From Desulfobotulus mexicanus (GTDB taxonomy: Bacteria > Desulfobacterota > Desulfobacteria > Desulfobacterales > ASO4-4), in contig NZ_VDMB01000001.1 in assembly GCF_006175995.1 (NCBI RefSeq), positions 62,001-126,000 on the forward strand: DNA of 64,000 bases. Direction: 5' to 3'. The stretch's first letter is position 1. Every line of letters begins with the position of its first letter. The position numbers were made by a program, and so were the translations under genes. Below the pieces are notes generated by a model. It had not been told where the DNA came from. It worked only from the letters and a program-made list of their open reading frames with translations, and ran no database searches. This document shows, one piece after another, positions 21,781 to 61,701 of the stretch.

Positions 21781-22505
21781 TTATTTGCGCGGATCCAGTT
21801 TTCTTGCCTCTTCCAATGACTTGTTAAAATCCATAAACAGAATTTCTTCTGGCAGGTCCCGGTCATGGAGGTGCACAAGCTCATCTCGAAGTGCTTCAGT
21901 CAGAACTACAAAGGATTGAATCTTTGATCCTTTAAGCCTAAGAATGGTTTCTTCTAGGGCAAAGGTGGCACTTAAGTCAATGAAGGGAATTCTGCGGCAG
22001 TCAAAAATCACCACCTTTGTACCCAGCACCTCGTCCACCTCATCCACAAGCTTGCTCGTGGAGCCGAAGAAAAAGGGTCCGTCGATTTCCAGGATACGTA
22101 TGTTGCCTTCCATGGCATCGGAGCGGTTGTCATCCGGGGGATGAATGCAGAGGTTGTCTGCCGGATCATGCGATGGATGATCATGGCCATCAGGCAGCCC
22201 ATGATGATCTGGATGAGTCCTGCAATGAGTACAGCAGCCATGGCCATGGAAAGATCACCGCCTACGGAAACAATAACGGAAGCAAAAACAACGGTCATGG
22301 GTCCGGTGGGACCGGATATCTGGGTACGGGTTCCACCAAAAATGGCGGCCATCATGCCCAGCATTATGGCTCCGTAAAGGCCTGCGGCTGCTCCTGCGCC
22401 GGAAGCGACTCCAAAGGCCAGGGCCAGGGGGAGGGCGACAATACCGGCGGTTAGTCCGCCGAAAAGATCTCCCCGGAGGGTGTTGATGGAAAAGACTTTA
22501 GTCAT
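21781..22505 (-). pseudogene. SulP-STAS anion carrier remnant: internal deletion plus frameshift
   Basis: The first 110 codons are nearly identical to the intact SulP gene at 31955-33532 (SINTLRGDLFGGLTAGIVAL...). The reading then jumps from IQIIMGC straight to MIIHRMIRQ, losing about 290 residues of membrane core. Shortly after, the frame shifts, so the STAS half (MEGNIRILEIDGPFFFGSTSKLVDEVD... to 21781) is in another frame. The STAS part alone is an intact 110-residue frame starting at 22113 and could be translated, but transport is impossible. ATGATC-like words flank the deletion joint. Confidence 0.9.
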
Positions 22506-31954: not shown

Positions 31955-33532
31955 TTATTTCTCTTTGTCTATTTTTTTTGCTTCTTCAAGTGCTTTTTCA
32001 AAATCCACAAAGAGAATTTCTTCGGGAAGATCTTTGTCGTGGAGATGCACAAGTTCATTTCTGAGTACTTCACTTAGTACAATGAAGGTTTGAATGTGCG
32101 AACTCTTAAGGCGGAGAATAATTTCTTCCAGAGCAAAAATAGCACTGAGGTCAATGAAGGGAACCTTGCGGCAATCAAAAATAATTACCTTTGTATCCAG
32201 TACCGTGTCCACTTCATCCACAAGCTTGCTCATGGAACCGAAGAAAAAGGGGCCGTTTATTTCAAGGATACGGATTCTGCCTTCCATGGCATCGGATCGG
32301 GTGTTATCCAGAGGGTAAATTTTGAAGTTGGCCTGCCGGACCATGCGGTGGATGATCATACCCATAGACATGAAAACACCTGCGCCCACGGCAATGATGA
32401 GATCCACAAAAACCGTGAGTCCGAAAACCACGGTCATAACGGAAAGGTCTGTCCGGGGAGCGGTTTTTATGAGGCGAAGAAGCTTGTAGTCCAGAATATC
32501 AACGCCGACCTTGATGAGAATACCCGCAAGAACCGCCATGGGGATGTTGGTGGCCAGGGGCGCGGCTCCCAGAAGAAGGATGAGCAGAAGGCTTGCATGG
32601 GTGACACCGCTGATTCTTGTCTGTCCGCCTGCTTTGATGTTGACCACCGTGCGCATGGTGGCGCCTGCGCCGGGAAGGCCACCCACAAAGGAACACATCA
32701 TATTTCCCAGGCCCTGACCGATCAGTTCCCGGTTGGGTTTATGGCGGGTGCCTGTGACCGAGTCTGCCACAAGGGAAGTGAGCAGGGAGTCAATGCTTCC
32801 CAGAAGGGCAAGGGTGATGCCCAGAACAAGGATGGTGGTCCATGCCTGGAGACAGAAGGCTGGCATGATAAATTCCGGAAGTCCAAGGGGAATTTCACCG
32901 ATGACGGGAACCTTGAAGCCCAGCCCCATAGAGAGAAGGGTTATGGCGATCAGGGCAATCAGAGGGGATGGAATTATCCGGCTGATGCGCATGGGAGTAA
33001 AAAAAACGATGAGCAGGGTCAGCCCACCTAGTATCAGTGCCTGAAAATTAACGGCCATAAGGGTGGAGGGCAGTGTCATGATGGCAAGGAAGGGTGAGGT
33101 TTTGGGAGATGTTCCCATTAGAGGGGCTATCTGCAGCAGAATGATTATAATGCCGATGCCGCTCATAAAACCGGATATCACAGGGTAGGGGATAAAGCGC
33201 ACGAGGCCGCCAACCTTTACGCAGCCCATGATGATCTGGATAAGTCCCGCAATGAGCACAGCAGACATTGCAGTGGCAAGGTCACTGCCTACAGCCACGA
33301 GAATGGATGCAAATACAACGGTCATGGGTCCGGTGGGACCGGATATCTGGGTACGGGTACCGCCGAAAATGGCGGCCATCATACCCAGCATGATGGCTCC
33401 GTAAAGGCCTGCGGCGGCTCCTGCACCGGAAGCGACGCCAAAGGCAAGGGCAAGGGGCAGGGCGACAATACCGGCGGTGAGTCCGCCGAAAAGATCTCCC
33501 CGGAGGGTTTTGATGGAAAAGGTGTTAGTCAT
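31955..33532 (-). CDS. SulP-family anion (probably sulfate) transporter with STAS domain, 525 aa
   Basis: N-terminal RGDLFGGLTAGIVALPLALAFG (partly given) starts a membrane core of 10-14 helices including GTRTQISGPTGPMTVVFA and the FLAP-type SIDSLLTSLVADSVTGTRH block. A cytoplasmic STAS domain fills about residues 420-515 (RILEINGPFFFGSMSKLVDEVD, FIDLSAIFALEE). SulP carriers move sulfate, bicarbonate or other anions; in sulfate reducers sulfate import is the usual proposal. The start at 33532 is set by GGAGAG; the broken copy at 21781-22505 shares both coding ends and the leader. Confidence 0.93.
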   Translation of the reverse strand: MTNTFSIKTLRGDLFGGLTAGIVALPLALAFGVASGAGAAAGLYGAIMLGMMAAIFGGTRTQISGPTGPMTVVFASILVAVGSDLATAMSAVLIAGLIQIIMGCVKVGGLVRFIPYPVISGFMSGIGIIIILLQIAPLMGTSPKTSPFLAIMTLPSTLMAVNFQALILGGLTLLIVFFTPMRISRIIPSPLIALIAITLLSMGLGFKVPVIGEIPLGLPEFIMPAFCLQAWTTILVLGITLALLGSIDSLLTSLVADSVTGTRHKPNRELIGQGLGNMMCSFVGGLPGAGATMRTVVNIKAGGQTRISGVTHASLLLILLLGAAPLATNIPMAVLAGILIKVGVDILDYKLLRLIKTAPRTDLSVMTVVFGLTVFVDLIIAVGAGVFMSMGMIIHRMVRQANFKIYPLDNTRSDAMEGRIRILEINGPFFFGSMSKLVDEVDTVLDTKVIIFDCRKVPFIDLSAIFALEEIILRLKSSHIQTFIVLSEVLRNELVHLHDKDLPEEILFVDFEKALEEAKKIDKEK

Positions 33533-34290: not shown

Positions 34291-34330
34291 GCCGTTTCTT
34301 GAGCAATGCCTCAGGTACTCAAGAAACGGC
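34291..34330. terminator. 13-bp hairpin after the SulP-REC gene
   Basis: GCCGTTTCTTGAG pairs perfectly with CTCAAGAAACGGC across a 14-base loop, 12 bases beyond the SulP-REC stop. No T-run follows on the minus strand, so it may act as an mRNA 3' end stabiliser rather than a classical terminator. Confidence 0.6.
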
Positions 34331-34341: not shown

Positions 34342-36393
34342 TTAGTTTTCCTGATGCTGCAGTCCTGTACCTTGGGAAGTCCGGGGAGATATAAGTCTTT
34401 CTTCTGCCTGACGAATACGCTCTTCCTGGCTGATCTTGCGCCTTCGGGCTGCCTTGATTTTATCCAGAAGTTCTGAAAATTCTGCGGGTTTAAGGAGGTA
34501 GTCAAAGGCTCCCATGCGCATACCCTGAACGGCACTTTCTTCGCTTCCGTGGCCTGTGAGAAGAATAACCTCTACGGAGGGAAACTCTTTTTTCAACTCT
34601 GCCAGTACCTCAAGTCCGCCCATCCCGGGCATACGGAGATCCAGTACAACCACATCCTGTGGTTTTTCCCTAAGAAGGTTCAGTCCTTCCCTGCCGTCGT
34701 GGGTAAGGGAAATAATGTGTCCCCTTTCTTCAAGGCGCAGAGCAAGCATTTCCGTGAAGTCCTTTTCATCATCCACCAGCAGAATACGGGCACCGGGGAC
34801 CAGAGCTTTGGGGCTTTTTTCAGGCTGCGTAAAGATTTCTGCTTCCATGAGTGCACTTTTAAGGTCCGGAAATATTATTTGGGATGGAAGTCCTTCATGG
34901 TTCAGATTAATGAGCTGTGCCCTGATCTGCGGGGGCATGACCACAAGGGATGTGATTTTTGAGGCTTTGAGCCGTTCAATGGTTTCCTCCAGCGCAAAAA
35001 CGGCACTCAGGTCAATGAAGGGGATGCGACTGCAGTTGAAAATGATGACCTTTGTGCCCAGTACCTGATCCACATTGTCCGTAAGGCGACTGGTGGATCC
35101 GAAGAAAAAAGCCCCCTGAATTTCAAGTACCCTTACTTGTCCCTGCATATGGCTGGTGGCACTCTCGTCATCGGGCCAGATGCTGACGCGGGCCTGATTG
35201 CTGACCCTTTTGGTGATCAGTGCCATGGAAAAGAGAACCCCCACTCCTACGGCAATGATGAGATCCACAAAAACCGTGAGTACAAAGACGGCGGTCATGA
35301 CCATGAGATCATCTTTGGGGGCTGTTTTAAGAAGCTTGATAAAACGGTAGTCCAGAATATCCAGTCCTACTTTGATGAGGATGCCTGCAAGAACGGCCAG
35401 AGGAATGTTCTGGGCCAGAGGGGCGGCACCCAGAAGAAGAATCAGAAGAAAAACCGCATGGGTGACGCCGCTGATGCGTGTACTTCCCCCTGCTTTGATA
35501 TTCACGACTGTGCGCATGGTGGCTCCGGCTCCGGGAATCCCCCCCACAAAGGCGCAGAGGCTGTTGCCAAGGCCCTGCCCTACAAGCTCCCGGTTGGAGT
35601 TGTGCCGGGTACCCGTTACGGAGTCCGCCACAAGGGAGGTGAGAAGGCTGTCTATGCTGCCGAGAAGGGCAAGGGTAACGCCTGCAACAATCACGGGCTT
35701 CAGTGTTTCCATACTGAAGAGAGGCAGGGTGAGATCCGGCAGCCCCATGGGAATTTCTCCTATGACAGGCACCTTGAAGCCCGCAATAATGGAGATGAGG
35801 GTTACGCTGATGAGGGCCATCAGGGGAGAGGGGAGAATACGGCTGATGCTCATGGGAGTGAGGAAAACAATGAGCAGGGTAAGGAGGGACAGAAAGGCCG
35901 CCTGAAAATTAATGGACATTAAAGTCGCAGGTATGGCAAAAATTGCACCCGTGGGTGAAGCCTGTGAGGGTGCGCCCAGCAGTGGGGCAATCTGAAGAAG
36001 GATAATGATCAGTCCGATGCCGCTCATGAAACCCGATACCACCGGGTAGGGAATAAATCTGACAAGGGCTCCGGTCTTGCTGAGGCCTAGCAGGATCTGT
36101 ACCACACCACAGACAAGAACGGCACCCATGACCATGGCAATGTTTCCCTCCATGGATATGAGAATGGCTGCAAAAACCACGGTCATGGGGCCGGTTGGTC
36201 CGGAGATCTGCATTTTCGTCCCGCCCGCCAGAGCTGCAATTAGGCCCAGCATGATGGCTCCGTATAAGCCTGCCGCAGCTCCGGCTCCCGAAGCCACACC
36301 AAAGGCCAGTGCCAGGGGAAGGGCCACAACTCCTGCGGTCAGCCCTCCGAAAAGATCACCCCGGATGCGGGGCATGGATAAGGTGGAAGTCAT
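34342..36393 (-). CDS. SulP-STAS anion transporter fused to a receiver domain, 683 aa
   Basis: Residues 1-520 are a complete SulP-STAS carrier paralogous to the 31955 gene (MPRIRGDLFGGLTAGVVAL, SIDSLLTSLVADSVTGTRH, STAS with FIDLSAVFALEE). A short linker leads to a full receiver domain at about 535-655: ARILLVDDEKDF, phospho-acceptor Asp585 in VVVLDLRMPG, LLTGHGS, and Lys635 in DYLLKPAE. The tail is a charged helix (RRRKISQEERIRQAEERL). The start at 36393 has GGAGGATTT. It is the last gene of an operon with two histidine kinases and separate receivers. I infer that phosphorylation of the receiver gates transport. All receiver catalytic residues are present. Confidence 0.93.
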   Translation of the reverse strand: MTSTLSMPRIRGDLFGGLTAGVVALPLALAFGVASGAGAAAGLYGAIMLGLIAALAGGTKMQISGPTGPMTVVFAAILISMEGNIAMVMGAVLVCGVVQILLGLSKTGALVRFIPYPVVSGFMSGIGLIIILLQIAPLLGAPSQASPTGAIFAIPATLMSINFQAAFLSLLTLLIVFLTPMSISRILPSPLMALISVTLISIIAGFKVPVIGEIPMGLPDLTLPLFSMETLKPVIVAGVTLALLGSIDSLLTSLVADSVTGTRHNSNRELVGQGLGNSLCAFVGGIPGAGATMRTVVNIKAGGSTRISGVTHAVFLLILLLGAAPLAQNIPLAVLAGILIKVGLDILDYRFIKLLKTAPKDDLMVMTAVFVLTVFVDLIIAVGVGVLFSMALITKRVSNQARVSIWPDDESATSHMQGQVRVLEIQGAFFFGSTSRLTDNVDQVLGTKVIIFNCSRIPFIDLSAVFALEETIERLKASKITSLVVMPPQIRAQLINLNHEGLPSQIIFPDLKSALMEAEIFTQPEKSPKALVPGARILLVDDEKDFTEMLALRLEERGHIISLTHDGREGLNLLREKPQDVVVLDLRMPGMGGLEVLAELKKEFPSVEVILLTGHGSEESAVQGMRMGAFDYLLKPAEFSELLDKIKAARRRKISQEERIRQAEERLISPRTSQGTGLQHQEN

Positions 36394-36463: not shown

Positions 36464-37627
36464 TCAGGTGGATGCAGTTTTTGGCAGTACTCCGGGAAGG
36501 GTGAGGATAAAGGAGGCTCCTTCTCCGGGCCGACTGGAAACCACAATATCTCCGCCCAGCTGATGGGCCAGATCCCTACAGAGGTAAAGGCCAAGGCCCG
36601 TACCCTTACCCTGGGGCTTTGTGGTGTAAAAGGGGTCAAATATTCGCTTTTTAACGCTTTCAGGGATGCCGGGGCCTGTGTCTTTAACCTCTATGGAAAT
36701 TCTTTCCTTTTCCGGTGAAAAGGCGGAAAGGCTGATGCAACCCCCCTTGGGCGTGGCCTGTATGGCATTTTCCACAAGATTCACAAGGATCTGCCGAAGT
36801 CTGTGCGGATCGGTGAAAAGGGTAAGATCAGGGCTTTCTTCCACCACAATGGAAATTTCATTTTCAGGATGGATGGTGCGGCTCAGGGAGGCCACTTCCT
36901 GAAGAAAAGCCGGCATGTCACAGGCCCCTGGTGCTTCCGCCTCCCTGCGGACCATGCCCAGAAGCTGATGGGTGATGCGCCTTGCCCTTTCCACGGCCGT
37001 CTGTATGATATCCGAGGCCCGTTTCAGGCTGGCTTTTTCCGGAAGATCCTGCATGGAAGGCCTGTCCATCACCTGGGCTATCCATCCTGCCGCCTCATTG
37101 ATTATGGCAAGGGGATTGTTGATCTCATGGGCAACTCCCGTGGCAAGGGTGCCCACTGTGGCAAGCTTTTCCGCCTGAAGGGCCCTTTCTTCAAGTTCTT
37201 TGCGGATTTCGCCTTCAGCCTTTCTTTCCCTGCGGCGGCGTACCGCAGCCGCAGCCTGAAAGATCTTGCTTTCTATGTGGTCTATCTCCACAGGCTTGGT
37301 GATGTAGTCAAAAGCTCCGGCCCTTATGCCCTCAACACCCTCGCGGATGTCTCCCTGACCCGTGAGAAGAATCACCTCCATGTCCGGATAAAGCTCCCGG
37401 ATACGGTTCATGAGGCTGAGGCCGTTTTCCTCGGGCATGCGTATGTCGGAAACCACCACGTCGGCATTTTCCTTTTCCAGCAGGGCCATGGCCTCACGGG
37501 CGGAACCCGTGGGGTAAACCTTCAGTTCACGTTTTTCAAGGCGTTTGGCCAGGGCTTCGCGGAAGGCCTGTTCATCGTCCACCAGCACAAGGGAAATATC
37601 ATGGTAGCGTCTTCCGGTGTTGGGCAT
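36464..37627 (-). CDS. Receiver-histidine kinase hybrid, 387 aa, cytoplasmic
   Basis: N-terminal receiver (SLVLVDDEQAF, Asp61 in VVVSDIRMPEENG, LLTGQGD, Lys111 in YITKPVE), then a coiled linker, a HisKA domain with GVAHEINNPLAIINEAAGW, and a HATPase domain ([41 protein letters not shown]). No membrane segment. It should take phosphate from another kinase and relay or tune the signal. It lies 70 bases upstream of the SulP-REC gene and 4 bases downstream of a stand-alone receiver. Confidence 0.92.
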   Translation of the reverse strand: MPNTGRRYHDISLVLVDDEQAFREALAKRLEKRELKVYPTGSAREAMALLEKENADVVVSDIRMPEENGLSLMNRIRELYPDMEVILLTGQGDIREGVEGIRAGAFDYITKPVEIDHIESKIFQAAAAVRRRRERKAEGEIRKELEERALQAEKLATVGTLATGVAHEINNPLAIINEAAGWIAQVMDRPSMQDLPEKASLKRASDIIQTAVERARRITHQLLGMVRREAEAPGACDMPAFLQEVASLSRTIHPENEISIVVEESPDLTLFTDPHRLRQILVNLVENAIQATPKGGCISLSAFSPEKERISIEVKDTGPGIPESVKKRIFDPFYTTKPQGKGTGLGLYLCRDLAHQLGGDIVVSSRPGEGASFILTLPGVLPKTAST

Positions 37628-37631: not shown

Positions 37632-38006
37632 CTATCCCCTTATTTCAAGGATTCTGTTGATGGCTTCCAGCATGGTTTCCAGTTCACAGGGTTTGGTCAG
37701 GTAGTCCGAGGCCCCTGTCTTCAGGGCTTCCATTTTGGCTTCTTCGCTGCCGTGGCCGGTCAGCATTATGACAGCGGTTTCCGGGGCCATGCGCCGGAAA
37801 ATTTTAAGAACATCCATGCCGTCCATATCTTCCATCTTCAGATCCAGTATGGCCACATCCGCAGTATCATGGCGGAGAAGACGTATGGCATCAGCACCGC
37901 TGGTGGCCCGAAGCACGGAAAAGCCCCTTTTTTCCAGCCGGTTGCCCAGAACACGGACATAGCCGGTTTCATCGTCCACAAGGAGCAGGCGGCGGTTTTC
38001 TGGCAT
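37632..38006 (-). CDS. Stand-alone receiver protein, 124 aa
   Basis: A CheY-like single domain: LLLVDDETGY, phospho-acceptor Asp55 in VAILDLKMEDMDGMD, MLTGHGSEEAK and Lys105-type SDYLTKPCELE. No output domain. GGGGGGA precedes the ATG, which overlaps the upstream receiver's stop region (38006). In this operon it probably shuttles phosphate between the two kinases and the receiver fused to the SulP carrier. Confidence 0.9.
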   Translation of the reverse strand: MPENRRLLLVDDETGYVRVLGNRLEKRGFSVLRATSGADAIRLLRHDTADVAILDLKMEDMDGMDVLKIFRRMAPETAVIMLTGHGSEEAKMEALKTGASDYLTKPCELETMLEAINRILEIRG

Positions 38007-38440
38007 CAGTCCCCCCTCTGGTTGGCGATGGACATGGCCTTGGCAGTCACGATTTTTTCTTCATGGGCCTGCTTTTTGAGGGAGGCCTCATCCACCTTGG
38101 CTGTGAGGACATCAATGTCACAGGGTTTCATGAGATAATCAAAGGCACCTTTTTTCATGCCGTCTATGGCTGTTTCCACCGTGGCATGGCCTGTGAGCAT
38201 TATTACTTCCACCAGGGGAAATTCCAGCTTGATGCGGCTTAGGGTCTCAATGCCGTCCATGCCGGGCATTTTTACATCCAGAATGACCACATCCACCCAT
38301 GGATTTTCCGCCAGGGTTCTTAGGGCCTCATCTCCCGAAAAGGCCGCAACCAGTCGGAAATCTCTTTTTTCAAGGCGCTTGGAAAGGGTTTCCACAAAAC
38401 CGGTTTCATCATCTGTGAGAAGAACTTTTCTTTTAGCCAT
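38006..38440 (-). CDS. Receiver protein with short helical tail, 144 aa
   Basis: A receiver domain (VLLTDDETGFVETL, Asp55 in VVILDVKMPGMDG, MLTGHATVETA, Lys in DYLMKPCDID) followed by about 25 charged residues (ASLKKQAHEEKIVTAKAM). GGAGTGAAACC precedes the ATG. It lies 23 bases downstream of the membrane histidine kinase gene, which is therefore its likely kinase. Confidence 0.9.
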   Translation of the reverse strand: MAKRKVLLTDDETGFVETLSKRLEKRDFRLVAAFSGDEALRTLAENPWVDVVILDVKMPGMDGIETLSRIKLEFPLVEVIMLTGHATVETAIDGMKKGAFDYLMKPCDIDVLTAKVDEASLKKQAHEEKIVTAKAMSIANQRGD

Positions 38441-38463: not shown

Positions 38464-40260
38464 TTAAAGGTCTTGATTCTGTTTATGGTCCGTGAAGGAC
38501 TGCTCTTCACTCTCTTTTATTTCCTGTATGGCAGGCAGAAGAATCCGGAAGGTTGTGCCTGCACCCATCATGCTTTCCACCTCAAGCTTTCCGCCCATGG
38601 TGGCAATGATGCCGTAACAGATGGAAAGGCCCAGACCCGTTCCCTTGCCCACGGGTTTGGTGGTGAAAAAGGGATCAAAGATGCGTTTCAGGTTGGCTTC
38701 TGGTATGCCGGGACCCGTATCTGTTATGAGTATTTCCAGAAAATCATCGTGATTCACCGTTTCAAAGCAAAGGCTGCCCCCTTCGTTTTCCATGGCATCA
38801 ATGGCATTGTTGGCAAGGTTCAGTATTACCTGCTGTACCTCAGTTCTTGAAGCCATGACCCTGTGCAGATCCGGAGCAAGCCGGGTTTCTATGCTCACCT
38901 GGGCATAGCGGGCCCTTGGTTCGCAGAGGGGAAGCACTTCCCGGATCATCTCGTTGACCAGAAGGGCTTCGTTGCTGGATTCTGATTTGCGGGCAAAGGT
39001 GAGGAGCTTGCGGGTAATCTCCTTGCATCTCTGGCCCTGGGTGCGGATCTGGTTCAGGGAGGTGCGGAATTCATGCATGTTTTTGATTTGTTCGGGATTT
39101 TCTTCCGCGAGGAGATCGTCTATCCATCCGGCTTCTTCCACCATAATGGCCACTGGATTATTGATTTCATGGGCAATACCCGCAGCCAGCTCACCGATGG
39201 ATGCCAGTTTGCCCGTTTCAATGACCTGTCGGTTCATCAGCTGTTTTTCCGTTTCCTTTCTCTGGAGGGCATGCACCAGTTTTTTGGAAAAACGGATGGC
39301 CAGAAAGGCAATGACAAGAGCGCAGCCAAGGAAGAGGAAGATTCCAAGTTTTCTGGTCCGGATAAGATGGTAAAAGGCCTCGGATTCGGGCTGCTGGGAA
39401 ATCAGCATCCAGTCTCCGTTTTTTAAAAAGCCTGCCACATAAATCTGCTTATGCCCGTTTTTATCTTTGCCCTGATGAAAAATAAGGGCATCCCCGGAGC
39501 GGGTACTTAAAAGTTTCTGGTAAACCTGGGTATGGGGAGAAATATCCTGAAGGGGCCGGGTCTGTAGTTCTCCCTGGCGGTTAAGGATTGTTACAAAGCC
39601 GCGTTCGCCTATTCTGAGATTGCGGACAATGGTGTTAAAGGATTCAAAATCGATGGTGGCCCGGAGTATCCATGGTTTGCCTTCACTGTCATTGGCTTTT
39701 ACCATGACAATGAAGTGGGGCATGCCCCTCAGGCCAAGGAAGACATCGCTTGCCGCATGGGTTTTATTGCTCTTAAGAAATTCCAGGTACCATTCTGCCT
39801 GACTGTAATCCGCAGCGCCCAGCCTGAAGGGGCCTGCATAACTCACAAGGCGGCCCGTGGTGGCGGAGACCAGTCCCATATCTTCAAAAACGGGGCCATA
39901 TACCCGCCGCATTCTGCGGAGATGGGATTCCAGAACCTCGGGTTTCTGAAGCTCTTCCGGGGGGGACAAAAGAACGAGGCTCTGGAGGTTGGAAGTTTTC
40001 TCATTTAGAAAAGCATCAATTTCCGACCGGTTATGCTCCACAATTGCACTGAGGTTATTGGATATTTTTTCCCTTGTGGTGCTGTCATACTGGTTCAGGG
40101 TAATGGCCAGCACAAGGAGAAGGGGGGCAAGGCCTATGAAAAGGGAGGTGATGACCATGCGCCGGGCAAGCTTTGAATAGGCATCATGGGGTTTTGTGGC
40201 ATCTCCATGTGCAGAGGGCAGGGGAACAAAGGAAAGGTTATTATGTTTTATTTTTTTCAT
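38464..40260 (-). CDS. Membrane histidine kinase with Cache sensor domain, 598 aa
   Basis: A cytoplasmic N-terminus, a helix at about 33-53, a periplasmic double-Cache-type sensor (about 55-310, with [26 protein letters not shown] in part and [16 protein letters not shown]), a second helix near 316-336, then HisKA ([24 protein letters not shown], in part) and HATPase ([40 protein letters not shown]). It should sense a small external ligand, possibly a carboxylate or other anion, and phosphorylate the receivers encoded downstream. The ribosome site is poor, so translation is probably coupled to the preceding small gene. Confidence 0.92.
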
Positions 40261-40263
40261 ATT

Positions 40264-40662
40264 TTAATGGTCCCCCTGCCATTGTATGCGGGTTTCAATG
40301 AGTCTGCGGATACGGATGTGGCTGCTGCTGTTTTTTTCCATGAAAATCAGAAGGGGCGGCAGGGGTATATCCATACGGTGCCTTTGCCCTGCATGGAGGG
40401 AGTGCAGCACCAGCGGTGTTGCGGGAAGCTGCATGTGCAGGGCAGCCAGCAGGTCTTCTCTGCGGATATCCGCCAGATCCGGATCCAGTACCACAAGATC
40501 CGGTATGGTGCCTTTTCTGGTATCCTGCTGAATTCTTTCCATGAGTGCATATCCTGTACAGAAGGTTAGTGCCCTGCAGGGAAGCATGCGGAGCTCCCGC
40601 TGCAGAAGCTGGCATATATGGGGATTGGGGTCCGCAAAAAGAATGTATAGGCACGGGCTCAT
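40264..40662 (-). CDS. Degenerate receiver-like protein, 132 aa
   Basis: From the ATG at 40662 (AAAGGAAGG upstream) the fold resembles a receiver: ILFADPNPHICQLLQREL, a central strand LVVLDPDLADI with an aspartate at the phospho-site position, and a final strand LLIFMEKNSS. The acidic pair at the first strand is reduced to one Asp, and the conserved Thr/Ser and Lys are not where expected, so phosphorylation is doubtful. It is the first gene of the kinase-SulP operon, with its stop three bases before the kinase start. Confidence 0.65.
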   Translation of the reverse strand: MSPCLYILFADPNPHICQLLQRELRMLPCRALTFCTGYALMERIQQDTRKGTIPDLVVLDPDLADIRREDLLAALHMQLPATPLVLHSLHAGQRHRMDIPLPPLLIFMEKNSSSHIRIRRLIETRIQWQGDH

Positions 40663-52218: not shown

Positions 52219-52662
52219 CTAAAACCGCATGCTCTTTTCCAGTTTGTCCAGCCGGGATCGCTCTTCGGCCCTCCGGATACGGGCTTTCCTTGCCCTTTTG
52301 ATTTCTGCGGCCTCTTTTATTTTTTCCACCAGATCCTTGAAGTCATAGGGCTTCAGGGCATAGTCAAAGGCACCCCGCTTCATGCCTTCCACAGCGGTTT
52401 CCGTGGAGCCGTGGCCCGTCAGAAGGATCACTTCCGTTGAGATATGATCGGTCTTGATCTGCCGTAGCACCTGAAGTCCGTCCATGCCGGGCATGCGGAT
52501 ATCCAGAATCAGCACGTCATAGGGCCGGGTATCCAACATTTTCAGGCCGTCCTGACCACTATGGACTTCGTCGGCCTGAAAGCCTGCGGCGTTGAGTCTC
52601 ATGCAGAGTATTTCCGTAAAGTCCTTTTCATCGTCCACCACAAGGATGCGGATGGGTTCCAT
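52219..52662 (-). CDS. Receiver protein paired with DASS carrier, copy 2, 147 aa
   Basis: A receiver domain (IRILVVDDEKDF, Asp54 in VLILDIRMPGMDG, LLTGHGSTETA, Lys in DYALKPYDF) plus a 28-residue charged helical tail with AEERSRLDKLEKSMRF. The same tail, with few changes, ends the paralogue at 58882; a similar AEER helix ends the SulP-REC fusion. No DNA-binding domain. It lies downstream of a DASS carrier and a small membrane protein, so I infer an effector on the carrier rather than on transcription. Confidence 0.9.
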   Translation of the reverse strand: MEPIRILVVDDEKDFTEILCMRLNAAGFQADEVHSGQDGLKMLDTRPYDVLILDIRMPGMDGLQVLRQIKTDHISTEVILLTGHGSTETAVEGMKRGAFDYALKPYDFKDLVEKIKEAAEIKRARKARIRRAEERSRLDKLEKSMRF

Positions 52663-52825
52663 GGATGTCTCCTTTCTGTGCAGCCCTTTGGGCTGTCTGT
52701 TTTTAAGGCTGCTTCAGAGATTAAATGTGACTTTAAATTGAATCTTCACCCCGGCTGCCGGTTTTGAAAATCTCAGCCACCGGGAGATAAGGGGGGGCAG
52801 TAGCTGGCCTTAGAAAGCCTGCGTT

Positions 52826-53083
52826 TTATCCAGCGGAGCCTGAGGCAAAAAAATCCCAGATCAGTGGATAAAGATAATAAAGAATCATCAGAATGGCCAC
52901 ACTGAGGGGCCAGAACCATGATTTTTTAATGATTGCAGGGTTCCATGTGTTTTTACCCCTGGGCAGATGATGCAGGGGACGGAGGAGATCATAGAGGTGA
53001 TCTGCCTCGCTTTTAATTTTCTCATCATTTTTCTTTTCGTCATCTGAAAAATCTTTCAAGTTTTTTTCTGCATCTCTGCCCAT
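52826..53083 (-). CDS. Small one-helix membrane protein, 85 aa
   Basis: A charged N-terminal half (EKNLKDFSDDEKKNDEKIKSE in part) with HLYDLLRPLHHLPRGKN, then one membrane helix (FWPLSVAILMILYYLYPLIWDFF) near the C-terminus, shown only in part here. AAAGGAG precedes the ATG, 18 bases after the DASS stop, so it is co-transcribed. There is no counterpart in the other DASS-receiver copy. It could be a small carrier subunit or adaptor for the receiver; I do not recognise a family. Confidence 0.75.
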   Translation of the reverse strand: MGRDAEKNLKDFSDDEKKNDEKIKSEADHLYDLLRPLHHLPRGKNTWNPAIIKKSWFWPLSVAILMILYYLYPLIWDFFASGSAG

Positions 53084-53101
53084 GGGTAAGCTCCTTTTTT
53101 A

Positions 53102-54565
53102 TCAGTGTATGCCGATCAAAGGCCAGTAGAGAAGGGCCGCTGCCACGGATACAAGAAGCAGGATCAGGCACCAGGGTACGGCCACCTTGATGAAGTCGAT
53201 CTGGGTGAAATAGCCTGAGCTGTAGGCAATGATGGTTGGAGGACAGCCGATGACCAGCATAATGAAGGAGGTGGTCACAGGGGCCAGCAGGGCTACGGCC
53301 ACAGGAGACATGTTCAGCATGTCCGCCATGGGCAGGGTGATGGGCAGGGTCAGTGCCACCGCTGCGGAGTTGCTCATAAGGCTGGAGAGGAAGGAGCCGA
53401 AAAGTCCAAGGCCATAGAAAATGGTGAAGCTGCTTTTTCCTTCCAGCATGGGCAGAAGGCTTTCCGCAAGGAACTGGCCTGCTCCTGTCTGCAGCATGGC
53501 CATACCAAGAGAAACCCCGGCACCGAAGACAATCCAGGATTCCCAGGGGAATTTGTCGCAGATGGTTTTAAAGGAGACCCATCCGGGACCACAGAAACCA
53601 ACCATGGCAATACAGGCGGCAACACTGACATGCCAGCCCGTAAAGTCTCCCAGAAACCAGAGGACAAAGGTCAGAACAAAAACAATGCTGACCCCCAGTT
53701 CCGCCCTGCTCATGGGACCGGGGTCGTCCAGTTCAATGCCTTTGAGTTCCTTTTCTTCGGGTCTGAAAAGAAAATATACCACGGCCCAGGTGGCAACGGC
53801 CGTAAAGATACTGATGGGCATCTGGATGATGAGGTACTCCATAAAGCCGATAACTTTTCCCACGCCCGTGGTTTCCTCGGTATATCGGTAGAGGACTTCC
53901 AGGGCCAGCGGGTTACGACCGCCACCGATCATGGTGCCAAAGCCTCCTGCGGATGCGGCCATGGGAATGAGCATGAGAAAGAATTTTGGAAGTTTGTGCC
54001 CGCTGCCCGGTTTCATGCCCATGGCCATAAAAACAGGAACAAAGGCAAACACCATGATAACGGTGACCGTTGCATCGTGGAGAACCGTTGCCGTAAGGGT
54101 GCATCCTACAGCAAGAATAAAGCTTAATTTTTTGACATTGGTTCCTGCAAATTTCAGCAGATGATACATAAGCCGTCTGGCAAGGCCCACCTCGTTCAGA
54201 ATGACACCAAACATGATGATCATGAGAACAAACATTACCGCAGGGTTGGCATAGGGTGTCCATGCATCGTTTCTGCCCACAATGTCAAAGGCTATCATGC
54301 CGCCCCCGACACAGAGGGCTGTGACACCTATGGGCAGGGCTTCTGTGGTCCATAGAACAAGAATGGTGACCAGAAGGGCCAGCAGTCTGTGGCCTTCGGG
54401 AGAGAGATTTTCCGGTGTGGGAAGAAGATAGACAAAGATACCCAGAGCAACGGCAATGGTGCATTTGATGATGATGCTCATGCCGGACTGCGGGGGACTT
54501 TGGGGTTCCTCATGGTGGTCAACGAGGCGGTTGGGGGGCGGGGTCGCATGATCCTGGGCTCCCAT
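53102..54565 (-). CDS. DASS (SLC13)-family anion carrier, copy 2, 487 aa
   Basis: Eleven to twelve helices with the DASS layout. The second substrate loop reads LMSNSAAVALTLPITLPMA; the first repeat has LHDATVTVIMVFAFVP in place of the usual Ser-Asn-Thr motif and GTMIGGGRNPLALE nearby. DASS carriers use sodium to import dicarboxylates, sulfate or related anions; sulfate is plausible in a sulfate reducer. The start at 54565 has AAAGGAG. It is near-identical over long stretches to the 59406 gene, so one is a duplicate of the other. Confidence 0.92.
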   Translation of the reverse strand: MGAQDHATPPPNRLVDHHEEPQSPPQSGMSIIIKCTIAVALGIFVYLLPTPENLSPEGHRLLALLVTILVLWTTEALPIGVTALCVGGGMIAFDIVGRNDAWTPYANPAVMFVLMIIMFGVILNEVGLARRLMYHLLKFAGTNVKKLSFILAVGCTLTATVLHDATVTVIMVFAFVPVFMAMGMKPGSGHKLPKFFLMLIPMAASAGGFGTMIGGGRNPLALEVLYRYTEETTGVGKVIGFMEYLIIQMPISIFTAVATWAVVYFLFRPEEKELKGIELDDPGPMSRAELGVSIVFVLTFVLWFLGDFTGWHVSVAACIAMVGFCGPGWVSFKTICDKFPWESWIVFGAGVSLGMAMLQTGAGQFLAESLLPMLEGKSSFTIFYGLGLFGSFLSSLMSNSAAVALTLPITLPMADMLNMSPVAVALLAPVTTSFIMLVIGCPPTIIAYSSGYFTQIDFIKVAVPWCLILLLVSVAAALLYWPLIGIH

Positions 54566-54689
54566 GGTATAAACTCCTTTCACACAATCTTCTGTTTTAT
54601 TTATGCTTCCCTGAACAGGGAAGGATGGTTGAAGAAAGGCCTGAATTCTTGAAGCTTTTTTATTTCAGGCCGCTTTTTAAGGTTTTTTG

Positions 54690-54706
54690 TGCAAGGATGA
54701 TACCGG
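54690..54706 (-). promoter_or_regulatory. Weak sigma-54-like promoter before DASS copy 2
   Basis: On the minus strand CCGGTATCATCCTTGCA has GG and GC ten bases apart and a TTGCA -12 element, about 126 bases upstream of the ATG. The -24 side is poor (GGTAT instead of GGCAC). Confidence 0.3.
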
Positions 54707-54877
54707 AAGGAGCTTTTCTGGCTTTTTTTAAAAGCAGTAAAGTTGTTTACATTTCTTTTTTTGAATTGGGATTCCCTGAAGGTGGCGAAGATGGGGATTT
54801 TTATGGTTTGAAGGATCTGACATTATTTTTTTGGGAAGGAAAAGCAAGGGGTATAAAGATGGGAGAAGGCAGGGGCT

Positions 54878-54934
54878 GAATTGAAAAGAAAGCCGACACT
54901 TTTTTTGGGGCCTTGTCAGCACTTTTTACACTTT
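54878..54934. repeat. Direct repeat A, copy 1 (about 56 bp)
   Basis: Starts TGAATTGAAAAGAAAGCCGA and runs to TTTTTACACTTT. Nearly identical to 58522-58578 in the same orientation. The pair brackets the TacAT-like genes and the broken chemotaxis gene. Confidence 0.8.
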
Positions 54935-55005
54935 CTGATGACTACTCTGACCCAGCCACAGTCTGCTGGTCCAGTTGTTGTCTGGCCCATGGTGGGGGCT
55001 TTCAT

Positions 55006-55130
55006 ACGACTCTGTGATGTAGGGGTACCCTTTACGGGTGCTAAGCCAACAATCATAAAATCTGGTCATGTAATCTCCATGACTTAAAGTTCCTATGGCT
55101 GAAAGACAGTGGTAATCAGATTACTTTATG
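55006..55130. repeat. Direct repeat B, copy 1 (about 125 bp, imperfect)
   Basis: ACGACTCTGTGATGTAGGG ... ACCCTTTACGGGTGC ... ATGGCTGAAAGA ... GGTAATCAGATT. Matches 56126-56249 in the same orientation and brackets the toxin-antitoxin pair. Confidence 0.7.
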
Positions 55131-55177
55131 GGAGAATCATGCATGGGAAGCTTTGATGAATGCGGATGGATGTGAAG

Positions 55178-55708
55178 CTAAGAAAATAAAGTATCAAGTG
55201 TTTTTATGGGTATGTACATTCTGATTTTTTGATTATGGTCGCATAGTTTCTCAAAACCGTATTTTGTATAAAAGCTTTGGGAAGATTCATTAAGGCAATC
55301 TACAATAACGGCATAGGCAGGAAGGTATGCATTTGCTTTCCATAAATATTCCAAGGCTTTTATCAGCGTTATTTTTCCTAACCCATAACCATGACATTCT
55401 TTGTGAACTGCAAGTTGAGCAATCAAAAATACAGGAACAGGATAAAGTGGTAATTTTTTAGCATGATTGACAGGCAGGGTTTCACGAGAGATCGTGTTAG
55501 GAGAAACCGTGAAAAAAGAACAGATCAGATGCTTTTGATTTGCTAAAATATCCTTTGCAGGGAGTACCATTGTACGGCTGATACCTGCTTTCATGTGTTT
55601 GGCAGCGTGGTTTTTTATAAAATAATTCAGCTCTTCTTCCCCACAATCAAAAGAAAGCCGATCATGTGAATTCTTGTTCAGTTCTTTAAAAATCTTATTA
55701 CAGAGCAT
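55178..55708 (-). CDS. GNAT acetyltransferase toxin, TacT-like, 176 aa
   Basis: N-terminal FDCGEEELNYFIKNHAAKH is characteristic of TacT-type toxins. The acetyl-CoA loop follows the strand VFLIAQLAVHKECHGYGLGK, and the C-terminal SSQSFYTKYGFEKL completes the GNAT core. Such toxins acetylate charged tRNA and stop translation. The ATG at 55708 overlaps the antitoxin stop. The DNA is distinctly AT-rich compared with the DASS genes, a sign of transfer. Confidence 0.9.
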   Translation of the reverse strand: MLCNKIFKELNKNSHDRLSFDCGEEELNYFIKNHAAKHMKAGISRTMVLPAKDILANQKHLICSFFTVSPNTISRETLPVNHAKKLPLYPVPVFLIAQLAVHKECHGYGLGKITLIKALEYLWKANAYLPAYAVIVDCLNESSQSFYTKYGFEKLCDHNQKIRMYIPIKTLDTLFS

Positions 55709-55974
55709 CAAAACCCTTTTTCTCTGGCAAAGACAGCAGCCTTTGATAAAGCCTCATTGGGTTTTTGAGCTTTCTCACAAGCAGAAATAAAATTATCAAA
55801 AATATTATCTTCTACAATGATACTTTTGTGCTGTTCCAAGACCTGTGTGGCATTTTCATCCATTATTTTGACAATATATTCTGTAAGGTTTTTTAAACCT
55901 AAAAGAGTGGATGCCTTTTCTGCTTTTCTTTTTATTTTTTCATCAAGTCTTATGTCTAATCTTGCCGTTGGCAT
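55708..55974 (-). CDS. DUF1778/TacA-type antitoxin, 88 aa
   Basis: A ribbon-helix-helix start (TARLDIRLDEKIKRKAEKAS) and the DUF1778 body (LLGLKNLTEYIVKIMDENA) followed by a toxin-neutralising tail. The ATG at 55974 is preceded by AAGGAGACTGAA; an upstream in-frame start falls inside the palindromic operator and is less likely. It binds the GNAT toxin and represses the pair. Confidence 0.9.
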   Translation of the reverse strand: MPTARLDIRLDEKIKRKAEKASTLLGLKNLTEYIVKIMDENATQVLEQHKSIIVEDNIFDNFISACEKAQKPNEALSKAAVFAREKGF

Positions 55975-55989
55975 TTCAGTCTCCTTTTT

Positions 55990-56014
55990 TATGTACGGAT
56001 TATTTCCGTACATA
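55990..56014. promoter_or_regulatory. Palindromic operator of the TacAT-like module
   Basis: TATGTACGGA and TCCGTACATA form a perfect 10-bp inverted repeat with a 5-base spacer, 16 bases upstream of the antitoxin ATG, the expected place for autoregulation by a ribbon-helix-helix antitoxin. Confidence 0.65.
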
Positions 56015-56125
56015 AAGATAGCTCACTATTTACTGCTCTGCAATAGAAAAATCTGTAAGTCAGTAAGGCGCAGGCTTTTGCCGGTCTGCGGTAAGGTTTC
56101 CGGATTTTTTACTGGAAGGGTTTTT

Positions 56126-56249
56126 ACGGCTCTGTGATGTAGGGCACCCTTTACGGATGCCCTCAGGCAGGTGTAAAAGCTGCCCTTGCAATGTTAATGA
56201 TTTGAAGTTCGCATGGCTGAAAGAAGGAGGTAATCAGATTGATTTATGT
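56126..56249. repeat. Direct repeat B, copy 2
   Basis: Partner of 55006-55130; it overlaps the last codon and stop of the chemotaxis gene. The sequence just before it (56075-56116, GCCGGTCTGCGGTAAGG...CTGGAAGG) recurs at 58436-58476. Confidence 0.7.
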
Positions 56250-58247
56250 ACGGAACTGCTCAACAAGCTTTTTGATGGATTCAGAGAGACCGGATAAATC
56301 ACTGGCACTGGCACTTACCTGACTGCCGCTCTTCTGCATTTCTCCCATGACATGGCTGATTCCGGCAATATCTCTGGCTACCTGTTCAACTACCAGGCTG
56401 TTTTCACTTGCATTTTCGTGTACCAGCTCAATGCTTCTCGATACCTGCCCAACATTATCCGCAATTTCTTCCGCAGCAGCAGACTGTTCTTCTACGGCAG
56501 CGGCAATGCCTCCCACAACATCGCTGACATCATTAATTACGGATGTAATTGCTGCCACATCCTTTACTGATGCCGAGGTTGTTTCCTGTATTTTCTGAAT
56601 TTTATCACTTATGTCCCGGGCTGCTTCGGCGGTTTGAGTGGCAAGCTGTTTTATTTCATTGGCAACTACGGCAAAGCCCTTGCCCGCATCTCCGGCTCTG
56701 GCTGCCTCTATGGTGGCATTCAGGGCCAGCAGGTTTACCTGTGCGGAAATATCTGTGATGGTTTCAATGACACGGCCGATGCCTCCTGCGGCTTTTTCAA
56801 GATTATCCATACTTATTGATACCCTGGAAGCACGGCCTGCTGCATCCTGGGATATGGCTCTGGCTTTGCCGGAATTTTGGGCGATTTCCCTTATGGTTGC
56901 AGACATTTCTTCCGTTGCCGTTGCCAGAAGACTGGTGTTGTGGGAAGACTGCTGCAGGGCTTCCGTGGATTGGGCCGTATTGGCGCTCATTTCTTCTGAA
57001 GCTGCGGCAACGCTTCCGGCTCTGCCGGATACATCCTGCACCCTTTCCTGAGTTTCCTGGGCAATGGCCGCAAGCTGTACGGAAGAAGCCGTGAGACTGT
57101 GGATATTGTTGCCTATGTTTCCGATAATACCCTGGAGCTTTTCCACAAAGGTGTTGAACCAGAGGGCCAGCTCTCCGGCCTCATCCTTTGTGCTGACCTC
57201 AAGGCGCATGGTAAGATCCCCATCCCCTTCGGCAATGTCCCTGAGACCTGCCACAGCTTTTTTAACAGGACTTACAATGGAACGACTGACAAAGCCAATG
57301 GCGGCAGAGGCTGCGGCAATGGAAATCAGCATGACCAGTATCAGGGCTTTTCGTATATCTCTGGCATTGGAAAGATACTCTTCTTCATTCTGAGCCATGA
57401 AAATATACCATCCGGTACTGTTTATGGGTGCAAATCCCCCCATGCGGGTTATTCCCTGAAAGACATAGGGAGAAGCACCGGGTCTGCCCTTCAGCATTTC
57501 TTCGCCAATTCCCCTCATTCCTTCAAAATCCCTGATATTGGCTTCCAGTACCAGAGAAGAGTCGGGATGGGCCAGAAACTGCCCGTTTCCATCCAGCATG
57601 AATCCATAGCCCGTTTAGCCAAAGGTACGTTGGGAAACAATCTGTGTCAGGTAGTCCGCCTTGATAATGATGGAAAAGGCTCCTATAAATTGGCCATTTT
57701 CCGAAACGATGGGAGATATGACCGGAAGGATCAGTTCCCCCGTTGCTGCGGATCTGAGCAGTTTTCCAGCAAAGCTTTCTCCGGTCTGTTTTGTGCGGAT
57801 GAAGTCCGGATTGGTGGCGATGCTTATGCCTCTGTACTCCCTGCCATCGGCCAGAATACCGGTAAAGATGTTTCCTTGCTGATCCGCCATGAAAATTCCC
57901 TGATAATTGCTGCCCATGCGCTCAAACTGTTTTTTGAGGCTTTCAAAAACCCTTTTTCTGGATATTTCCACGGACTGACTGTCATTGTCTGCAAGTGCCC
58001 TGGCAAGATCCACAGTGGTTTCATCTGCTGCATAGATTGCTGTGAGCCGGATTTCAGCAGTGAGCATATTGTCCACAAGGGAAGCAAGGTCTCTGGCAAC
58101 ATCCCGTGTATTTTCTGCTGCTGCATGGGTAAAAGCGGAAGTGGATCTTGAAACGGCCAGTATGCCGATGGCAAGAAGGGGAATGGTTACAGACAGCAGG
58201 GCAATGCAGATAAGCCTGAAAGAAATGGAGTGAATGTTCAGTTTCAT
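56244..58247 (-). pseudogene. Methyl-accepting chemotaxis protein with dCache sensor, interrupted by in-frame TAA
   Basis: Residues 1-210 (start 58247, GGAGAAACTCC upstream) give a helix and the first part of a double-Cache sensor, ending DYLTQIVSQRTFG. A TAA at 57615-57617 follows, and the same frame then continues without a break: [20 protein letters not shown], a helix, HAMP and a full signalling domain ([39 protein letters not shown]). Related sensors have a lysine at the stop position (FGKTGYGF), so AAA to TAA is the likely mutation. Both pieces are otherwise intact, which means the change is recent, a sequencing error, or subject to read-through. Confidence 0.88.
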
Positions 58248-58521
58248 GGAGTTTCTCCTTATTCGGACTTAAACATTAAATAGATATTTCATTCATATGT
58301 CTGAGAAAATGTTTTTGCAAGATCAATAGATTGGTGAAAATGAATGGTTGCTCATGATTCTGTGTATAAGTCCATTGAAAACGGGATCTTCCTTAAAATA
58401 AAAAATTTTGTCTTCCAGTAAGGATCAGGCCCATGCCGGTCTGTGGTAAAGATTTCGGGCTTTTCTCTGGAAAGATATTGGGTTTCGGCAAAAGCTTTGG
58501 GACTGCAGGCCCCTCTATCAC

Positions 58522-58578
58522 TGAATTGAAAAGAAAGCCGACACTTTTTTTGGGGCATTGTCAGCGGTTTTTACACTT
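58522..58578. repeat. Direct repeat A, copy 2
   Basis: Partner of 54878-54934; about 275 bases upstream of the broken chemotaxis gene, a distance similar to that of copy 1 from DASS copy 2. Confidence 0.8.
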
Positions 58579-58666
58579 TTAGCTGTCATCAGCAGGCAGG
58601 TCATAAGGAAAGGCTTTGTTCTGGCAAGGGAGTGTTTATTTTTCGCATTATATCCACCCAAAGAAA

Positions 58667-58692
58667 AAGGACACCGGAAAACCGGTGTCCTT
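58667..58692 (-). terminator. Intrinsic terminator of the CBS-DASS-receiver operon
   Basis: AAGGACACCGG pairs perfectly with CCGGTGTCCTT around AAAA. On the minus strand it is followed by TTTCTTT, so it should stop transcripts coming from 61488. Confidence 0.8.
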
Positions 58693-58715
58693 AATCAAGG
58701 GGAGTATGGGGGGAG

Positions 58716-58812
58716 GTTCCCGTCCGGGGGGGCGGGACCCCGCTGAATCTGGAGGATTGTATGATCCCTTTCCGGAGGGGGTGGAAAGGAACCTGCGGGG
58801 TTGGACGGGAAC
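58716..58812. ncRNA. Nested-hairpin GC-rich element, candidate structured RNA
   Basis: Three nested stems: GTTCCCGTCC (58716-58725) with GGACGGGAAC (58803-58812), ACCCCGC (58737-58743) with GCGGGGT (58795-58801), and CCTTTCC (58767-58773) with GGAAAGG (58783-58789). It lies in the 3' untranslated region of the receiver gene, just before the terminator. I know no family with this shape; it may equally be a palindromic repeat. Confidence 0.4.
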
Positions 58813-58881
58813 TCCCCGTTCGGGGCCTGTTCAATAGGTATTCAATAAATATTTAAATGCAACAAGCAGGCCATTGGCCTT

Positions 58882-59325
58882 TTAAAAACGCATGTGTTTT
58901 TCCAGTCTGTCGAGGCGGGAGCGTTCCTCCGCCTTTATGATCCGCTCTTCCCTTTCATTTTTGACCATGCGGGCTTCCTTGATTTTATCTAAGAGATCCT
59001 CAAAGTCGTAGGGCTTCAGGGCATAGTCAAAGGCACCTTTTTTCATGCCTTCCACGGCGGTTTCCGTTGAACCATGACCTGTGAGCAGGATCACTTCCGT
59101 TGAAATATGGTCTGTTTTAATCTGTCTGAGAACCTGCAGTCCGTCCATGCCGGGCATGCGGATATCCAGAATCAGAACGTCAAAGGGCTTTTCATCCAGT
59201 TTTTTGAGGCAGGACTGGCCGTCATGCACAGCTTCTGCGCTGTGTCCTGCCTCAGTCAGCCGCAGGCAGAGCATTTCCGTAAAATCCTTTTCATCGTCCA
59301 CCACCAGAATGCGTATGGGTTCCAT
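58882..59325 (-). CDS. Receiver protein paired with DASS carrier, copy 1, 147 aa
   Basis: A close paralogue of the 52219 protein: IRILVVDDEKDF, Asp54 in VLILDIRMPGMDG, LLTGHGSTETA, Lys in DYALKPYDFED, and the same charged C-terminal helix (AEERSRLDRLEKHMRF). No output domain. GGAGACAAACCCC precedes the ATG. It is the last gene of the sigma-54-driven operon CBS-DASS-receiver, 80 bases after the DASS stop. Confidence 0.9.
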   Translation of the reverse strand: MEPIRILVVDDEKDFTEMLCLRLTEAGHSAEAVHDGQSCLKKLDEKPFDVLILDIRMPGMDGLQVLRQIKTDHISTEVILLTGHGSTETAVEGMKKGAFDYALKPYDFEDLLDKIKEARMVKNEREERIIKAEERSRLDRLEKHMRF

Positions 59326-59405
59326 GGGGTTTGTCTCCTTTTTTTATGAACCGGACCTGAAGAGGCCCGGTTTTTTTGACGGTGTTGTTGCTTGAAAACA
59401 GGCCC

Positions 59406-60878
59406 TTAGCCTCCATACACTCCGATCATGGGCCAGTATAAAAGGGCTGCTGCCACGGAAATCACCAGCAGGGTTATACACCATGGTACGGCCACCTTAA
59501 TGAAGTCCACCTGGGTGAAGTAGCCAGCACTGTAGGCGATGATGGTGGGAGGGCAGCCGATGACCAGCATGATGAAGGAGGTGGTGATGGGCGCCAGCAG
59601 GGCTACAGCCACAGGGGACATGTTCAGCATGTCCGCCATGGGCAGGGTGATGGGCAGGGTCAGTGCCACCGCTGCGGAGTTGCTCATGAGACTGGAGAGG
59701 AAAGAGCCGAAGAAACCAAGGCCAAAGAAGGTGACAAAGGAGCCTTGACCTTCAAGGAGGGGCAGGCAGGATTCGGCCAGAAACTGTCCGGCTCCGGTTT
59801 TCAGCATGGCAAGGCCTAAGGAAACACCGGCACCGAATACAATCCAGGATTCCCAGGGAAATTTGTCGCATATGGTTTTAAAGGAGACCCATCCCGGGGC
59901 GCAGAAGCCCACCATGGCCATGGCAGCCACCACACTCACATGCCAGCCAGTGATATCTCCAAGGAACCAGAGAACAAAGGCACCAAGGAAAACAAGGCCC
60001 ACGCCCAGCTCCGCCGTGCTCATGGGACCGGGATCTTCCAGCTTCACACCCACAAGCTCCTTTTCCTCGGGCCTGAAGAGAAGGTAAACCACAGCCCAGG
60101 TGGCAACACCTGTGAAAAGGCTGATGGGAAACTGTATGATGAGATATTCCATAAATCCGATAACTTTACCGACTCCCGTTGTTTCATTGGTGTAGCGGTA
60201 GAGAATTTCCAGGGCCAGAGGGTTTCGGCCGCCACCGATCATGGTGCCAAAGCCCCCTGCGGATGCGGCCATGGGAATGAGCATTAGGAAAAACTTGGGC
60301 AATTTATGCCCCTGTCCCGGTTTCATGCCCATGGCCATGAACACAGGCACAAAGGCGAATACCATGACCACGGTGACAGTGGCATCGTGGAGGATGGTGG
60401 CCAGGGTGGTGCAGCCCACGGCAAGGATGAAGCTCAGTTTTTTAACGTTGGTTCCGGCAAGCTTTAAAAGGTGATACATCATGCGCTTGGCAAGGCCGAC
60501 CTCATTTAAGACTACGCCGAACATTATGATCATGAGAACGAACATGACCGCAGGGTTGGCATAGGGGGTCCAGGCGTCGTTTCTTCCCACAATTTTTAAG
60601 GCGATCATGCCTGCACCCACGCAGAGGGCCGTGACACCAATGGGTATGGCTTCGGAGATCCAGAGAACAAGAACTGTTACCAGAAGGGCCAGGAGTTTGT
60701 GGCCTTCGGGGGAAAGGTTGTCCGGTGTGGGAAGGATATAAACAAAAATCCCTAAGGCAAGGGCAATGGCACATTTGATGATGATGCTCATGCCGGACTG
60801 GGGAGGTGTTTCCGGATGCTCATCAATCACCAGTTCATTGGGGCCGGGTTTTTTCAGCTCCTGTGTGTTTTCAGCCAT
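59406..60878 (-). CDS. DASS (SLC13)-family anion carrier, copy 1, 490 aa
   Basis: Same architecture and motifs as the 53102 gene (LHDATVTVVMVFAFVP, GTMIGGGRNPLALE, LMSNSAAVALTLPITLPMA), differing mainly at the termini and in a few loops. A secondary sodium-anion symporter in the inner membrane. GGAGACTGAAAC precedes the ATG. It follows the CBS gene after 58 bases and precedes the receiver gene; all three should be under the sigma-54 promoter at 61562. Confidence 0.92.
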   Translation of the reverse strand: MAENTQELKKPGPNELVIDEHPETPPQSGMSIIIKCAIALALGIFVYILPTPDNLSPEGHKLLALLVTVLVLWISEAIPIGVTALCVGAGMIALKIVGRNDAWTPYANPAVMFVLMIIMFGVVLNEVGLAKRMMYHLLKLAGTNVKKLSFILAVGCTTLATILHDATVTVVMVFAFVPVFMAMGMKPGQGHKLPKFFLMLIPMAASAGGFGTMIGGGRNPLALEILYRYTNETTGVGKVIGFMEYLIIQFPISLFTGVATWAVVYLLFRPEEKELVGVKLEDPGPMSTAELGVGLVFLGAFVLWFLGDITGWHVSVVAAMAMVGFCAPGWVSFKTICDKFPWESWIVFGAGVSLGLAMLKTGAGQFLAESCLPLLEGQGSFVTFFGLGFFGSFLSSLMSNSAAVALTLPITLPMADMLNMSPVAVALLAPITTSFIMLVIGCPPTIIAYSAGYFTQVDFIKVAVPWCITLLVISVAAALLYWPMIGVYGG

Positions 60879-61690: not shown

Positions 61691-61701
61691 GGTGGAGGGG
61701 A

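Follow-up and report, generated by a model that had tools for sequence, protein, structure and literature searches.

Why would a bacterium build a response-regulator receiver into an anion carrier, and does the signal then run to the carrier or from it? The question is raised by one gene in a stretch of 64,000 nucleotides of Desulfobotulus mexicanus (contig NZ_VDMB01000001.1, positions 62,001 to 126,000; called the window below, and all positions are counted from its first letter), in which a SulP carrier with its STAS domain continues into a receiver domain. An earlier sequence-only reading had placed the gene at 34342-36393. These coordinates were right, but the minus strand went unmentioned: the reading frame goes from an ATG at 36393 to a stop at 34342 on the minus strand, with 683 codons, and in the frame read on the plus strand several stops interrupt this interval. 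The gene, its parts and its neighbours are as follows.

40264..40659, minus strand: degenerate receiver-like protein that opens the operon (Response_reg at E 3e-4, under the cut-off)
38464..40260, minus strand: membrane histidine kinase with dCache domain, 598 aa (Pfam dCache_1, HisKA, HATPase_c)
38006..38440, minus strand: single-domain response regulator RR2, operon position a (Pfam; 98/84 in the receiver tree with a receivers)
37632..38006, minus strand: single-domain response regulator RR1, operon position b (Pfam; 100/99 in the receiver tree with b receivers)
36464..37627, minus strand: histidine kinase with receiver (REC-kinase, K), 387 aa (Pfam, family alignment, family search)
34342..36393, minus strand: SulP-STAS-REC fusion gene, 683 aa (single open frame, three Pfam domains, full length in three Desulfobotulus genomes)
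35290..36363, minus strand: SulP transmembrane domain, BicA-like, residues 11-368 (Pfam, 6KI1 match, Foldseek)
34903..35145, minus strand: STAS domain, residues 417-497 (Pfam)
34792..34833, minus strand: linker between STAS and receiver, residues 521-534 (the unfused paralogue stops near here)
34453..34785, minus strand: receiver domain, residues 537-647 (Pfam, residue positions, receiver tree)
34639..34641, minus strand: codon of the phospho-acceptor Asp585
34345..34452, minus strand: C-terminal helix and tail (RRRKISQEERIRQAEERL..., by alignment common to free terminal receivers)
34291..34330, minus strand: 13-bp perfect inverted repeat just 3' of the fusion stop (RNA fold z -4.53)
31955..33532, minus strand: unfused paralogue of SulP-STAS with 67% identity, some 800 bp beyond the fusion gene

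The three Pfam domains of this one frame were all well above their cut-offs: Sulfate_transp at residues 11-368 (1.2e-81), STAS at 417-497 (7.8e-12) and Response_reg at 537-647 (2.9e-28). The run from SulP-STAS into the receiver is thus unbroken, as the earlier reading had it. With both carrier domains in one polypeptide and an SLC26 fold, the protein belongs to the SulP/SLC26 carriers with STAS. The fused domain is a response-regulator receiver with a complete active site, and the acidic pair (D541/D542), the acceptor D585, T613 and K635 were found at the places first reported. The AlphaFold model (mean pLDDT 80) has an SLC26-type membrane domain, STAS, a linker and a receiver whose last helix is long. 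Residues 524-532 of the linker had pLDDT below 50 and are predicted to be disordered.

Such a junction could come from an error in the sequence, but the same SulP-STAS-REC protein was found at full length in D. alkaliphilus ASO4-4 (98% identity) and in a third Desulfobotulus genome (87% identity). In all three assemblies STAS passes into the receiver without a stop, including between residues 520 and 535, where a stop had been named as the thing to look for. Because the same fusion is present in two further assemblies, a sequencing error is excluded, and an assembly artefact at the junction, to which we leave practically no probability, is refuted. The receiver might still be an accidental passenger, gained when a stop codon was lost and without a role in the carrier, and the restriction of the fusion to one genus among the genomes searched would agree with this. 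We consider it very improbable, since the protein is kept at full length at 86-98% identity with its catalytic residues intact, and since two unrelated carriers gained receivers in these bacteria (see below). Against the third Desulfobotulus species the receiver had a dN of 0.079, with dS saturated, similar to the SulP domain (dN 0.082), and the drift in the protein was confined to the last 31 residues. The fused receiver is under purifying selection; chance or frameshift fusion is ruled out by the three assemblies together with dN/dS. Because of the conservation at full length in three genomes and the selection on the receiver, the fusion is genuine: it is no artefact, and no passenger either.

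The fusion gene ends a row of genes in the same direction, in which neighbours either overlap slightly or are up to 70 bp apart, and lies 70 bp downstream of the REC-kinase. The kinases are encoded in the operon of the fusion, just upstream on the same strand, as had been proposed. The dCache kinase is the candidate sensor of the system. At the place of the degenerate receiver, weak receiver homologues were seen in L122, L123, L126 and L150 of the relatives. By Pfam, no operon receiver has a DNA-binding domain, nor, except for the kinase's own, an enzymatic output domain. The inverted repeat at 34291-34330, which has no T-run, is a probable transcript end of the operon, and the unfused paralogue beyond it is probably a separate unit. 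A third SulP copy in the window (21781-22505, minus strand) is broken: about 110 N-terminal residues and the STAS part stand in different frames, and most membrane helices are deleted.

Free receivers with about 60% identity to the fused one occur in many Desulfobacterales, in an operon of the order dCache kinase, receiver a, receiver b, DASS/SLC13 carrier, REC-kinase, receiver z. A profile search for the REC-kinase family in 194 genomes of the order gave scores that split into a high and a low group; the Desulfobotulus kinases were within the high group, and the window kinase scored 554 bits. Besides the window, 64 loci were examined, two from Desulfobotulus and 62 from other bacteria. Among these 62, a DASS gene stood directly upstream of the REC-kinase at 44, and at 41 of the 44 a receiver followed directly downstream; two were at contig ends, and SulP-REC was present at none. 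All three Desulfobotulus loci have SulP-REC instead of the DASS layout. The DASS proteins of the operon are close to each other (mean column identity 67%), and no copy of this type was found in the three Desulfobotulus genomes, where the best match reached 300 bits. These 300-bit matches are a divergent DASS pair at 53-61 kb of the window and its counterparts in the other Desulfobotulus. In this genus the operon no longer contains a DASS gene, and its terminal receiver is part of a SulP carrier.

In relatives, unknown open reading frames near exceptional REC-kinase loci were inspected by eye for a different carrier in place of DASS, and among those inspected none was recognised as such a carrier (for example anthranilate synthase in L180 and a universal stress protein in L201). 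The window also has a cluster at 52219-63953 (minus strand) in which a single-domain receiver of the fused receiver's clade comes after each of two DASS carriers; a CBS protein, a kinase and a regulator of the NtrC type are also encoded there. In the REC-kinase at 36464-37627, the receiver branch is unusually long (0.9) compared with other members, as if this domain had been altered at the carrier exchange.

Where the fused receiver came from was read from a tree of 133 receiver domains, of which only the large clades were used, as the alignment has few columns and the bootstrap was unsettled. The fused receivers shared a clade (100/98) with 18 z receivers and with those receivers of Desulfobotulus that lie next to DASS genes (window 52219 and 58882); inside this clade, the pairing with the latter had only 94/84. 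The other operon receivers of the window grouped by position, RR2 with a (98/84), RR1 with b (100/99) and the kinase receiver with K (100/97). Mean identity of the fused receiver was 58% to terminal receivers versus 45-46% to the other operon positions, and the alignment showed that the z tail RKxxQEERIRxAE is kept. Its place, directly downstream of a REC-kinase of the family, is also that of receiver z. The z clade and the shared tail therefore point to a terminal-type receiver joined to a SulP carrier, and by this comparison the fused receiver descends from the free terminal receiver that is encoded beside an anion carrier in relatives.

Fusion of a receiver to an anion carrier was also found in another form. 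A 688-aa protein of L128 (15187-17253, minus strand) has, by Pfam, an N-terminal receiver followed by a DASS carrier, in the same kind of neighbourhood. Such REC-DASS fusions of about 690 aa occur in about 15 Desulfobacterales genomes (L128, L219, L232-L245); a search of the order returned about 15 besides that of L128, 48-78% identical, and the gene order at most loci is dCache kinase, REC-DASS, receiver. Those of L128 and L232-L245 resemble SulP-STAS-REC in joining a receiver to an anion carrier beside a dCache kinase, but the receiver is N-terminal and the carrier is of another family. Their receivers form a clade of their own outside the z clade, so an origin of both fusions from the same receiver clade was rejected. 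Two unrelated carrier families thus gained receivers independently, one at the C-terminus and the other at the N-terminus, and in signalling operons of one kind.

The search for SulP-STAS-REC and its gene neighbours, which the earlier reading had proposed, covered about 490 genomes of the phylum and plasmids. It returned the fusion in three Desulfobotulus genomes and nowhere else in the phylum genomes searched: there was no further SulP-receiver fusion among 96 relatives, and none in 395 phylum genomes, where two candidates per genome were scored and a divergent one could escape. The plasmids gave no SulP-receiver fusion either, and their four long matches were SulP with universal stress protein. 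Long SulP frames of relatives were fusions to cNMP-binding, MCP and YqeY domains, none with a receiver. The SulP-STAS-cNMP-binding proteins of L136-L142 are like SulP-STAS-REC in having a regulatory or partner domain behind STAS; these and the other C-terminal fusions differ from it in that they have no phosphorylatable receiver. Carbonic anhydrase is also found fused behind SulP-STAS. In L140 (2432-4678, minus strand) a YqeY-like domain takes the C-terminal place. Giant MCP-SulP-STAS proteins of 1363-1411 aa were seen in L142 (7347-11582, plus strand), L141 (12547-16638, minus strand) and L143 (3676-7818, plus strand), of which the L141 and L142 proteins end in a cNMP-binding domain (the Pfam scan for this covered these two); they are possible transporter-chemoreceptors. 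Receiver-CBS fusions stand near DASS carriers in L124 (16850-17755, plus strand) and L126 (17786-18715, plus strand).

The earlier reading had put the emphasis on sulfate uptake, which is probably wrong, as the carrier is closest to BicA, a Na+/HCO3- symporter of the SulP/SLC26 family. The SulP membrane domain is 50% identical to BicA (6KI1; E 3e-99), its best sequence match in the PDB, and the BicA membrane domain was also the top match of the fusion in Foldseek (TM 0.91 on the target). The HCO3-/Na+ ligands of BicA are T69, A301, D258, T262, G300 and T302 (PMC13249358). All six are identical in the fusion: T69, D258, T262, G300, A301 and T302 correspond to T67, D248, T252, G290, A291 and T292, with the PDB chain numbering offset by one residue. 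In several of the phylum's SulP proteins, IESLLS takes the place of IDSLLT. The fusion differs from BicA in its extra C-terminal receiver and in its host, a heterotrophic sulfate reducer. It scored 456 bits on the NCBIfam BicA equivalog model; because this is below the cut-off of 880, we call the carrier BicA-like, not BicA proper, and the substrate is a guess from homology: probably Na+/bicarbonate, more likely than sulfate. The habitat of D. alkaliphilus is the soda lake, which fits a Na+/bicarbonate carrier and proves nothing. A review on soda lakes names this species (PMC4158274).

We propose that the SulP-STAS carrier is the output of the phosphorelay: the kinases would phosphorylate the receiver borne on the carrier and so modulate transport. 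To this reading we give a probability of roughly 0.55. The dCache kinase would sense an extracellular cue, the phosphate would reach Asp585 through the kinases and receivers of the operon, and the phosphorylated receiver would alter STAS, the carrier conformation or the STAS dimer, so that the transport rate changes within seconds. Applied to relatives, this would make the DASS carrier the target of the free terminal receiver. Attachment of a receiver behind STAS is plausible because the STAS domain of BicA is required for transport and dimerization (PMC13249358). That the carrier is a two-component output is favoured, from comparative genomics, by the ancestry of the receiver, the lack of output domains and the independent fusion of receivers to transporters. 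The strongest evidence is the swap from DASS to SulP, the origin from the terminal receiver and the REC-DASS fusions, all of which the earlier reading had missed. It suggests that this two-component system works directly through the transporter, and not through genes. The disordered linker of the AlphaFold model counts against gating of STAS by the receiver.

The receiver could instead inform the kinases or withdraw phosphate from them. In the main rival explanation, the carrier is a sensor or transceptor: flux of substrate through SulP-STAS would alter the attached receiver, which as a phosphate sink or phosphatase target would tune the kinases and the other receivers, and the output would be elsewhere. 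Other receivers of the operon could serve as this output, but none of them has an output domain. Transporters upstream of a two-component system have precedents in the SLC5-STAC kinases (PMC9100948, PMC13022988) and in DauA-DctA-DcuS (PMC5703999); these carriers, however, bear or contact a kinase, and the fusion carrier bears a receiver. That the terminal receiver stays free beside the carrier in relatives also speaks against such sensing, and we regard it as unlikely, at somewhat over one chance in five.

Less likely again, at about half that chance, the receiver would be a tether that recruits the kinases or further receivers to the carrier or to the cell pole and does not gate the carrier. 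The predicted disorder of the linker and the several receivers in one operon would suit a tether, and receivers bind their own kinases in both phosphorylation states. Simple docking, though, has no need of the full active site, which is under purifying selection in three species. The carrier as output of the phosphorelay thus remains the reading we prefer.

Fusions of a carrier with a two-component module are already known, and those found are joined to kinases. The SLC5-STAC histidine kinases CbrA, CrbS and RpuS combine a solute carrier with a two-component module in a single chain (PMC9100948, PMC13022988), with the carrier joined to the kinase as input of the pathway; in SulP-STAS-REC the carrier is a SulP protein and is joined to a receiver, the output by position, so the fusion is not a SLC5-STAC kinase. 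In DauA-DctA-DcuS of E. coli a SulP carrier is physically linked to a two-component system (PMC5703999). Unlike in the fusion, the link there is made by protein contacts, gene expression is what it controls, and the SulP protein has no receiver. A survey of sulfate transporters in sulfate reducers lists DASS proteins as candidate sulfate transporters and does not mention response regulators (PMC5840216). Our literature search, mainly of openly readable papers, found no SulP-receiver or DASS-receiver protein; an earlier listing is possible.

In many two-component systems it remains open how a receiver that lacks an output domain exerts its effect. Here a natural fusion and an exchange of carrier family within one signalling operon name the probable target, an anion carrier. 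More tentatively, with slightly less than an even chance of being right, single-domain response regulators in Desulfobacterales may be direct and fast controllers of anion carriers, forming a receiver-gated class with three or more forms (DASS beside a free receiver, REC-DASS and SulP-STAS-REC), and the operon may be a portable module in which the carrier is exchangeable. If this is true, anion uptake in these sulfate reducers would be set by phosphorylation in seconds, and SulP-STAS-REC would offer a single purifiable system for the control of SLC26-type transport by STAS.
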